Shown here: piece after piece, positions 17,468-44,748 of the stretch | Layout: each line of letters opens with the position of its first letter | How positions within the stretch are numbered: position 1 is the stretch's first letter | Assembly: GCF_000156655.1 (NCBI RefSeq) | Contig: NZ_DS996844.1 | Span: forward strand, 48,360-93,312 | Length of the DNA: 44,953 nt | Reading direction: 5' to 3' | DNA from: Holdemanella biformis DSM 3989 | GTDB lineage: Bacteria; Bacillota_I; Bacilli_A; Erysipelotrichales; Erysipelotrichaceae | Translations under genes and position numbers: made by a program | The notes under the pieces: model-generated | Database searches by the model: none | Seen by the model: the letters and a program-made list of their open reading frames with translations, nothing else | What the model was told of the DNA's origin: nothing

Positions 17468-17494
17468 CTAAAAAAATACAAAAAATACTTTTGT

Positions 17495-17606
17495 GTCTTC
17501 TACCATCCAGACTATACTGTCGGTCTTGGAATCACACCAAGTCAGCCACTTGCGTGGGTCGCGGACTTTTACCGCCGGTAGGGAATTGCACCCTGCCCCG
17601 AAGAAC
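17495..17606 (-). promoter_or_regulatory. FMN riboswitch (RFN element)
   Basis: The minus strand carries the conserved RFN segments in order: CTTCGGGGCAGGGTG, ATTCCC followed by TACCGGCGGTAAAAG, CCCGCGA-like TCCGCGACCC, GATTCC in the fourth stem, and the closing GTCTGGATGGTAGAAGA. It binds FMN and would end transcription when flavin is plentiful, shutting down ribU and the creatininase-family gene. Confidence 0.96.
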
Positions 17607-17629
17607 TCATTGAATCTATGTTCATGAAT

Positions 17630-28387: not shown

Positions 28388-28665
28388 AAAAAAACCAATC
28401 GTTTCTTGCTGCCTGCTAGACAGAAGAGACGAAAGGTTAGAATTACAATACTTCCGCGGTACCACTCTTCTTCATTCATTTAAGAATGCACTCATTTCAG
28501 ATGCTATCACATCCTGCTTCATTAACGTTAAGCATACGTTCAAGTCTTATCAACCTGACCACTCCATGGTAAGTTCAAAGTTTGATCTTTCATGTCTTGC
28601 ACCAACCGACAACTCTCTAACAAAGACATTCCTTTTACTACTCCATTTCCTTGTGTTTTGTGCGT
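28388..28665 (-). promoter_or_regulatory. T-box riboswitch, probably leucine-specific
   Basis: On the minus strand the T-box core GAGTGGTACCGCGGAAG lies at 28451-28467; its UGGU would pair with the ACCA end of an uncharged tRNA with discriminator A, as in tRNA-Leu. Stem I shows GGAATG, the distal GGTGCAAG loop and the specifier region TTTGAACTTACCATGGAG, where the codon reads CUU (or UUA one base over), both leucine. A terminator (28388-28436) with a long stem and seven T residues follows. Uncharged tRNA would turn on the permease and dehydrogenase genes. Confidence 0.93.
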
Positions 28666-43172: not shown

Positions 43173-43190
43173 TTCAATCTTTGTTCTTTT
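43156..43190. terminator. Bidirectional terminator between coaX and the antiporter gene
   Basis: A 13-bp perfect stem (AAAAGAACAAAGA with TCTTTGTTCTTTT) with both stop codons in the 9-base loop, followed by T-runs on both strands. Confidence 0.9.
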
Positions 43191-44352
43191 TTAATAATTT
43201 TTTATATGTATGTTCAATCATAAATGCACCTAATGGTGCAGTAATCAAGATGGATAAAACCGCAACAGTCAATACAATTTGCCCACATCCTAGTCCTGCA
43301 GCTAAAGGAACGGATCCAATTGCTGCTTGCACAGTTGCCTTTGGACAATATGCGATCATACAAAATAATCTTTCTGTTTTACTTAATGACGTTTTTAATA
43401 AACAAATAAATACACCAAGCATTCTAAATAAAAGTACTCCAAATATTAACAGAATAGCCATCATGCCTGCTTTTAGTGCATAAGAAATATTTACACAGGC
43501 TCCAACTAACACAAATAATAAAACTTCCGCACCAACCCAAAGTTTATTAAATTTTACAGATAACCTTTTGGATGCAACCGAATGATTTCTTTGCAGAAAA
43601 ATTCCCATAAACATAATCGCAATTAATCCTGAAAATGGAATTGGTAAAGCATCCTCAAGTGTCACTAGAATAAATGCCACACTTAGTAGAATTAAAATCT
43701 TTACAGTATCTCGCATATGATTTTTCTTAAAGAAAATTGCGAATCCTTTACCTAATAATGCACCACATATAATGCCAGTTAGAATGGATAGTGGAATATT
43801 CACAAAACTTAATATATTTATACTTTCTCCTTGGGCTAAGCCAAGAAATGCTGTGAACATCACAATCACAAAAACATCATCTACACTAGCTCCTGCCAAA
43901 ATCAATTGAGGAATACTTTCTTTTGTCCCATATCCTTCATCCATAAGTTGTAACATTTTTGGAACAATAACGGCAGGACTTACAGCTGCAACAACACTTC
44001 CCATAATGGCAGCATCTAACAAAGAAATTCCTAGTAATTTTGGTGCCAACAAAATCATTCCAATCATCTCAAAACAGGCCGGCACAAAACACATCAATAT
44101 AGCAGGTCTTCCAACTCTTTTTAAATCACTTAAATCTAAATTCAATCCGGCTCTCATCAATATAATAATTAATGCAATTTTTCTTAATTCACTAGAAATA
44201 TTTAATAGAGATGAATCAATTAAGCCAAGACAATAAGGTCCTAAAAGAATCCCTGTAAATATCATCCCTAATAGTCCAGGTAATTCCACCTTTTTACAGA
44301 TCCAAGATAGAAACATTCCTACAAGAAAAATATAAGATAAACTGATCAGCAT
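43174..44352 (-). CDS. Cation:proton antiporter (CPA family) under fluoride riboswitch control
   Basis: 392 residues with about 12 membrane helices. CPA-type features: inverted-repeat topology, the helix-4 region MGSVVAAVSPAVIVPKM, and the ion-binding double aspartate in ILAGASVDDVFVIVMF. Sodium/proton antiporters are among the gene classes known to follow fluoride riboswitches; such a carrier may expel fluoride or restore pH after HF entry. Ribosome site AAAGGAG. The leader and promoter are described separately. Confidence 0.88.
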   Translation of the reverse strand: MLISLSYIFLVGMFLSWICKKVELPGLLGMIFTGILLGPYCLGLIDSSLLNISSELRKIALIIILMRAGLNLDLSDLKRVGRPAILMCFVPACFEMIGMILLAPKLLGISLLDAAIMGSVVAAVSPAVIVPKMLQLMDEGYGTKESIPQLILAGASVDDVFVIVMFTAFLGLAQGESINILSFVNIPLSILTGIICGALLGKGFAIFFKKNHMRDTVKILILLSVAFILVTLEDALPIPFSGLIAIMFMGIFLQRNHSVASKRLSVKFNKLWVGAEVLLFVLVGACVNISYALKAGMMAILLIFGVLLFRMLGVFICLLKTSLSKTERLFCMIAYCPKATVQAAIGSVPLAAGLGCGQIVLTVAVLSILITAPLGAFMIEHTYKKLLKKNKD

Positions 44353-44376
44353 TTTATCTCTCCTTTCAAAACGCAG

Positions 44377-44420
44377 AAAAGCTGATGGTTTCCGCGTTAA
44401 AAAACACAGAAGTCATCAGC
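44377..44420 (-). terminator. Fluoride-riboswitch terminator sharing the aptamer 3' strand
   Basis: On the minus strand GCTGATGACTTCTGTG (44420-44405) can pair with CGCGGAAACCATCAGC (44396-44381), 14 of 16 positions, then TTTT. The first strand is also the conserved 3' part of the aptamer, so aptamer and terminator exclude each other. Confidence 0.75.
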
Positions 44421-44467
44421 CTATAAAAAGCGGTTTTAGTTTTAAACTAAGGGAGAACTTCATTCCC
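44405..44467 (-). promoter_or_regulatory. Fluoride riboswitch (crcB motif)
   Basis: Minus-strand RNA begins GGGAATGAAGTTCTCCC (first stem), has an inserted small hairpin TTAGTTT/AAACTAA, then AACCGC and the hallmark GGCTGATGACTTCTG. The loop GAAGT can pair with ACTTC of the last element, the pseudoknot of fluoride aptamers. Fluoride binding would free transcription from the terminator and turn the antiporter on. Confidence 0.8.
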
Positions 44468-44473
44468 AAAAAG

Positions 44474-44503
44474 ATTATACTACAATATCTAAGTTTTCAT
44501 CAA
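44474..44503 (-). promoter_or_regulatory. Promoter of the fluoride-riboswitch transcript
   Basis: Minus strand TTGATG (44503-44498), 18-base spacer, TATAAT (44479-44474). The predicted start at about 44467 is the first G of the aptamer. Confidence 0.65.
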
Positions 44504-44514
44504 TAGTATTTCAA

Positions 44515-44748
44515 TTAAATACTCTTTTTTAGTTCTCTTAATGCATCTAAATCTAGTCCAACAATCTCAGAAATTTCTTCAAGCGTTTGATTATTTCTTA
44601 CAAGCATTTTAATCGCTATTTTGATTTGTGTATTTTTTACACCACGCTCAATGCCTTGCTCAATTCCTTGTTTAATTCCTTGCTTGATACCCATCTGAAT
44701 TCCTTTGTTTGTCGATTCTTCAAACATTTCATCTAATGCTCTACGCAC
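44515..44748 (-). CDS. Free-standing Rpn C-terminal tail protein
   Basis: 77 residues. It matches only the C-terminal tail of Rpn/PD-(D/E)XK transposase-like nucleases: tandem five-residue Q/K-G-I repeats (IKQGIKQGIEQGIERG) followed by a helical bundle end (LVRNNQTLEEISEIVGLD). No nuclease core. The start is GTG 44748 with AGGTGAT 7 bases upstream and an in-frame stop four codons before, so it is a separate gene and not a continuation. Such tails in E. coli are made from internal starts and block the full nuclease; here one has its own gene. It may instead be a leftover of gene decay. Confidence 0.6.
   Translation of the reverse strand: MRRALDEMFEESTNKGIQMGIKQGIKQGIEQGIERGVKNTQIKIAIKMLVRNNQTLEEISEIVGLDLDALRELKKSI

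Follow-up and report, generated by a model that had tools for sequence, protein, structure and literature searches.

A predicted fluoride ON-switch ahead of an NHA2-like cation/proton antiporter gene in Holdemanella biformis

What controls the antiporter gene near the end of the 44,953-nucleotide stretch of Holdemanella biformis DSM 3989 DNA analysed here (the window), and why should a fluoride sensor stand in front of such a gene? We are confident that the leader acts as a transcriptional fluoride ON-switch before an NHA2-like cation/proton antiporter, a reading that includes a downstream refolding (lock) step. The switch itself is ordinary; what matters is that, throughout a large gut lineage, almost every fluoride riboswitch precedes a member of the same gene family, and that genomes with the riboswitch-antiporter pair (paired genomes) often lack a recognised fluoride exporter. 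As one family dominates the fluoride riboswitches of this lineage, the question of why bacteria respond to fluoride with Na+/H+ antiporters becomes directly testable. The gene, its promoter and the parts of the aptamer are as follows.

43174-44352, minus strand: CPA2 antiporter gene, 392 aa, NHA2/SLC9B2-like (Pfam PF00999, PDB 7b4l)
44360-44365, minus strand: ribosome-binding site AAGGAG, with the ATG 7 nt downstream (sequence)
44400-44476, minus strand: fluoride riboswitch aptamer, RF01734 (cmscan)
44409-44413, minus strand: 3' pseudoknot strand ACUUC, also within the terminator 5' arm (sequence, covariance model, relatives)
44419-44435, minus strand: AACCGC (44435-44430) and P3 (44431-44428 with 44422-44419) (structure line, covariance model alignment)
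44436-44450, minus strand: inserted hairpin UUAGUU/AACUAA, between P1 and AACCGC (sequence; covarying in relatives)
44451-44467, minus strand: P1 hairpin, GGGA (44467-44464) with UCCC (44454-44451) (covariance model alignment)
44474-44503, minus strand: promoter, -35 TTGATG (44503-44498), 18-nt spacer, -10 TATAAT (44479-44474) (consensus scan)

A cmscan search of the whole window against Rfam returned five matches, among them a full-length match to the fluoride riboswitch model RF01734 at 44476-44400 on the minus strand (45.8 bits, E 1.2e-9; gathering score, 34 bits). This is the sole copy in the 2.5-Mb genome, and it ends 47 nt 5' of the ATG (44352), which places it in the leader of a gene whose class is associated with the fluoride response. 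P1, P3, the pseudoknot and the conserved AUG and CUGAUG elements were all present. The P1 loop holds the 5' pseudoknot strand GAAGU (44461-44457), which is complementary to ACUUC (44413-44409); a pseudoknot of at least 5 bp can be drawn in 48 of 57 related leaders. The linchpin pair, which by position relative to the T. petrophila aptamer we take to be A44416-U44408, and the nucleotides that presumably form the ligand pocket by the same comparison (A44463, U44462, G44461, U44415 and G44414) all carry the expected letters. U44415 is the counterpart of the B. cereus position at which the U41A mutation abolishes switching. An earlier note had proposed a fluoride riboswitch with a possible GAAGT/ACTTC pseudoknot and the conserved element GGCTGATGACTTCTG, here located at 44421-44407 (minus strand), and had named the Rfam fluoride (crcB) covariance model as a check. 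That identification is borne out by the search score, by an architecture shared among dozens of relatives and by conserved gene linkage, and it is very probable that the leader is a fluoride-sensing riboswitch of the ON type. The same note had placed the transcription start at the first aptamer G. The -10 box lies 6 nt 5' of the first P1 G (44467), which would put +1 near G44467, and a -10-like hexamer recurs just 5' of P1 in 67 of 100 related leaders, mostly 6 to 8 nt away (23 in shuffles).

Linkage of this riboswitch to the antiporter was widespread. A search of 295 genomes from the order yielded 113 matches to RF01734, of which 97 exceeded the cut-off; 95 of the 113, and 88 of the 97, lay directly 5' of the antiporter gene, with a median gap of 47 nt. 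The antiporter itself was found in 107 of the 295 genomes and is the main riboswitch partner in the order. A class-level sample added the pair in 45 genomes beyond the order sample, and on genome contigs of close relatives, mostly Clostridia, a riboswitch above the cut-off preceded the antiporter in 9 of 16. The pairing as such is already known, and the window's leader is a further example: a passage of PMC11139923 citing Baker et al. 2012 ranks Na+/H+ antiporters as the next most common fluoride-riboswitch gene class after exporters, in agreement with the earlier note, which had counted them among the associated genes. As in the known pairs, the riboswitch lies 5' of a CPA-type antiporter. 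In contrast to C. difficile CD0656-7 (PMC11477304), where the antiporter follows a CLC gene, the window's antiporter stands alone, convergent with coaX; it also differs from other known pairs in being the dominant riboswitch partner of a whole order.

The other good riboswitches that were read preceded CLC-F genes (L012, L016, L019 and L114), crcB (L180), or truncated, frameshifted or masked antiporters. Three (L104, G129:C156; L105, G153:C6; L177, G437:C37) lie 5' of a two-gene operon for a NifU-like protein and a GGGtGRT protein (PF14057), and these riboswitches are spread over two different families; GGGtGRT was unmentioned in the top matches of a literature text search. Another fluoride riboswitch (L106, G153:C16; 36 bits) stands 5' of a probable MutS-like gene and of a gene for a Rex-like redox repressor (CoA_binding plus Put_DNA-bind_N). 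Linkage of the crcB motif to mutS was reportedly noted in a 2010 study. Weak RF01734 matches in six genomes (G292, G259, G293, G239, G272 and G005) lay inside genes and were set aside as chance. An apparent tandem of fluoride riboswitches (L176, G384:C6:22553-22849) was rejected as a scaffold artefact because its identical copies flank a run of N.

The earlier note's call of a CPA antiporter as the downstream gene holds. Of the Pfam families PF02537 (Fluc/CrcB), PF00654 (CLC-F) and PF00999, only PF00999 matched the protein (E 1e-45), placing it outside both known fluoride exporter families; matches to NCBIfam equivalog models were far below the cut-off. The nearest named record, from Holdemanella porci, is 96% identical. 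The best solved relatives were bison and human NHA2/SLC9B2 (E 2.9e-40 over the whole length; PDB 7b4l), with NapA-type and archaeal antiporters giving much weaker structural-database matches, and sequence similarity to solved NHA2 fixes the antiporter fold. Residues D158, D159, E95, R310 and K338 align to NHA2 D278, D279, E215, R432 and K460 (described in PMC12072577), and the protein carries both the Na_H_Exchanger domain and the DD ion site of CPA2/NHA2-like proteins. The cation-site residues were at least 97% conserved among riboswitch-linked antiporters. The window's protein differs from NHA2 in being bacterial, in its shorter N-terminus and length of about 390 aa, and in its predicted control by a fluoride riboswitch. 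Given a complete NHA2-type cation site, the antiporter need not itself export fluoride, and a cation/proton antiporter appears the likelier product than a fluoride exporter. A separate clade of riboswitch-linked antiporters was not found; members lacking a riboswitch were scattered through the tree.

The distribution of known exporters bears on this point. CrcB occurred in 0 of 95 paired genomes and in 29 of 200 others of the order sample (Fisher 1e-5, ancestry ignored), and in 0 of 52 paired genomes of the class sample, an exclusion that we regard as suggestive only. Three genera hold both types, paired and CrcB-bearing, in different genomes, and 25 paired genomes are at least 95% complete yet lack any CLC or CrcB. 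Together with a linkage no looser than that seen for known exporters, these counts would fit an antiporter that, behind the same RNA switch, itself exports fluoride (or moves HF or fluoride in a proton-coupled manner) as a third kind of exporter replacing CrcB. We nevertheless consider this unlikely, as the cation-binding aspartates and their partner charges are conserved, the CrcB statistic ignores ancestry and the genome from which the window comes carries a CLC-F-type gene as well. Furthermore, genomes without CrcB or any CLC were equally common among unpaired (130/200) and paired (57/95) genomes (p 0.44), and with the same background rate the pair was rejected as a mark of exporter-less genomes. 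The CLC-F-like gene of the window's genome (L002 1315-2535, G000:C32), recognised by its GMGL, GREGV and ATNT motifs, has a desulfoferrodoxin-like gene as its neighbour, with another CPA2 antiporter (L004) about 2 kb away; no riboswitch was detected at it. A more far-reaching proposal, which we put forward tentatively and hold to be rather doubtful, is that the NHA2-like clade is a dedicated fluoride-resistance transporter replacing CrcB in Erysipelotrichales and their neighbours, acting by fluoride transport or a lowered pH gradient, with a leader that has a built-in ON-state lock. Under the preferred reading of a cation/proton antiporter, the protein would help to restore the cytoplasmic pH or the balance of cations, and we infer that proton import would diminish the pH gradient behind HF accumulation. 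Antiporters next to fluoride riboswitches have likewise been assigned to pH homeostasis (PMC11139923).

How the aptamer could control transcription is suggested by two further structures downstream.

44377-44421, minus strand: intrinsic terminator, 8 bp, a 2x2 internal loop and 9 bp, with loop UUUU (folding, relatives)
44370-44398, minus strand: candidate lock (antiterminator) hairpin, AACGCGGAAA (44398-44389) with UUUCUGCGUU (44379-44370) (folding, shuffles)

The terminator (44421-44377) folds at -22.9 kcal/mol, and the stability of the complete leader exceeds that of shuffles by 3.8 sd. Its 5' arm (44421-44403) overlaps the 3' strands of both P3 and the pseudoknot, so that the aptamer and terminator folds are mutually exclusive, as the earlier note had argued in assigning the aptamer element to the 5' strand of the terminator. 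With at least six contiguous pairs and a T-run required, anchored on the shared aptamer element, 47 of 57 distinct related leaders pair a terminator arm with the aptamer strand, compared with 10 expected from shuffles. The platform thus has a GC-containing stem, overlap with the aptamer and a U-tract (UUUUCUGCGUUUU), the last being short and interrupted. Terminators overlapping the crcB motif were noted by Weinberg et al. 2010 (PMC2864571), and the predicted exclusion is the crcB mechanism detailed in PMC11077080, PMC8752731 and PMC13273304.

A simple terminator scan did not flag this hairpin, probably because the internal loop interrupts the stem. The scan result and the short U-tract could also mean that termination is weak and that the hairpin acts mainly on translation; this is very unlikely, as the terminator stem does not include the ribosome-binding site (44365-44360) and most related leaders have a long U-tract at the matching place. 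That the leader is a decayed remnant insensitive to fluoride is scarcely credible: some relatives (L034, L038 and L043) keep only the terminator half, but the match here spans the whole model, exceeds the curated cut-off and preserves every helix as well as the pseudoknot. Those three antiporter leaders and a fourth (L122) retain the terminator hairpin, whole or in part, without the aptamer 5' half, and they are either switches that have decayed or the result of breaks in draft or metagenome assemblies.

In the proposed transcriptional switch, RNA polymerase would start at about G44467, and the aptamer would for that reason fold directly on synthesis. In the absence of fluoride, strand 44398-44380 would disrupt P3 and the pseudoknot by invading the aptamer 3' strand (44421-44403), and the terminator would halt transcription at about 44377. 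With fluoride, we infer that the Mg-fluoride-bound pseudoknot would hold the 44421-44403 strand and polymerase would read on. The freed terminator 3' arm could then pair with newly made 44379-44370 as the lock hairpin, leaving the ribosome-binding site free.

This extra hairpin, which may lock the "on" state, would be formed by the terminator 3' arm AACGCGGAAA and its complement UUUCUGCGUU, which begins in the U-tract and extends beyond it. The leader folded without the aptamer strand adopted it, together with a weak outer helix, at -12.6 kcal/mol, and the pairing reached p 0.007 against shuffles of the downstream stretch. Among related leaders, 11 of 56 had such a pairing at p<=0.05, as did 9 of 37 later independent leaders at 0.05 (binomial 7e-5); two of these nine (L139 and L149) look like chance pairings between a T-run and the ribosome-binding site. 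A control stretch further downstream reached 0.05 in 4 of 93. Support for the hairpin thus comes from about one relative in four, with replication on the independent set; as most relatives are without it, it is not essential. The paired segments vary by lineage (AACGCGGAA/TTCTGCGTT, TAGGGGCA/TGCCCCTA, ATGCAGGA/TCCTGCAT, GAGACACAG/TTGTGTCTT and TGCGGAAG/CTTCCGCA), as would be expected of a maintained helix. A dedicated partner for the freed terminator arm seems to exist in a subset of leaders, where it would serve as a lock. In B. cereus, refolding of the freed downstream terminator strand has been suggested to help preserve the fluoride-bound state (PMC10687018), and the lock hairpin offers a clean natural case for that idea.

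The hairpin inserted after P1 had been described as a TTAGTTT/AAACTAA variation worth noting. The helix stands, with 6 bp instead of 7, as the 7-bp version leaves a 1-nt loop; its peculiarity does not. Where P1 and AACCGC are separated by 9 nt or more, an insert hairpin formed in 50 of 51 leaders (23 expected from shuffles) and in 39 of 40 of an independent set, together 89 of 91. The stems covary (AGU/ACU, GGA/UCC, CGA/UCG, GAG/CUC), and complementary stems that vary in this way in nearly all inserts mark it as a genuine helix. Rfam handles the hairpin as an insertion in its alignment, and short leaders without it (L044-L047, L050 and L056) still precede the antiporter gene. The hairpin is an optional element of the fluoride riboswitch family that is common in this lineage; a unique role was rejected, as nearly all relatives carry one. 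The covarying insert and the candidate lock hairpin, which is absent from the earlier note, are two modest additions.

The closest mechanistic comparison is the B. cereus crcB riboswitch (RF01734), in which a pseudoknotted aptamer and an intrinsic terminator likewise share a strand and for which antitermination has been published (PMC11077080, PMC8752731, PMC10687018). The window's leader differs in preceding an antiporter instead of crcB, in its extra 6-bp hairpin after P1 and in its explicit complement of the terminator 3' arm after the U-tract.

Directly 5' of the promoter, a 77-aa open frame (window 44515-44748, minus strand) resembles the C-terminus of Rpn-family nuclease/transposase proteins, with a match below the cut-off. 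Elsewhere in the window, cmscan placed an FMN riboswitch at 17491-17609 and a T-box leader at 28422-28660 (minus strand), both well above the cut-off.
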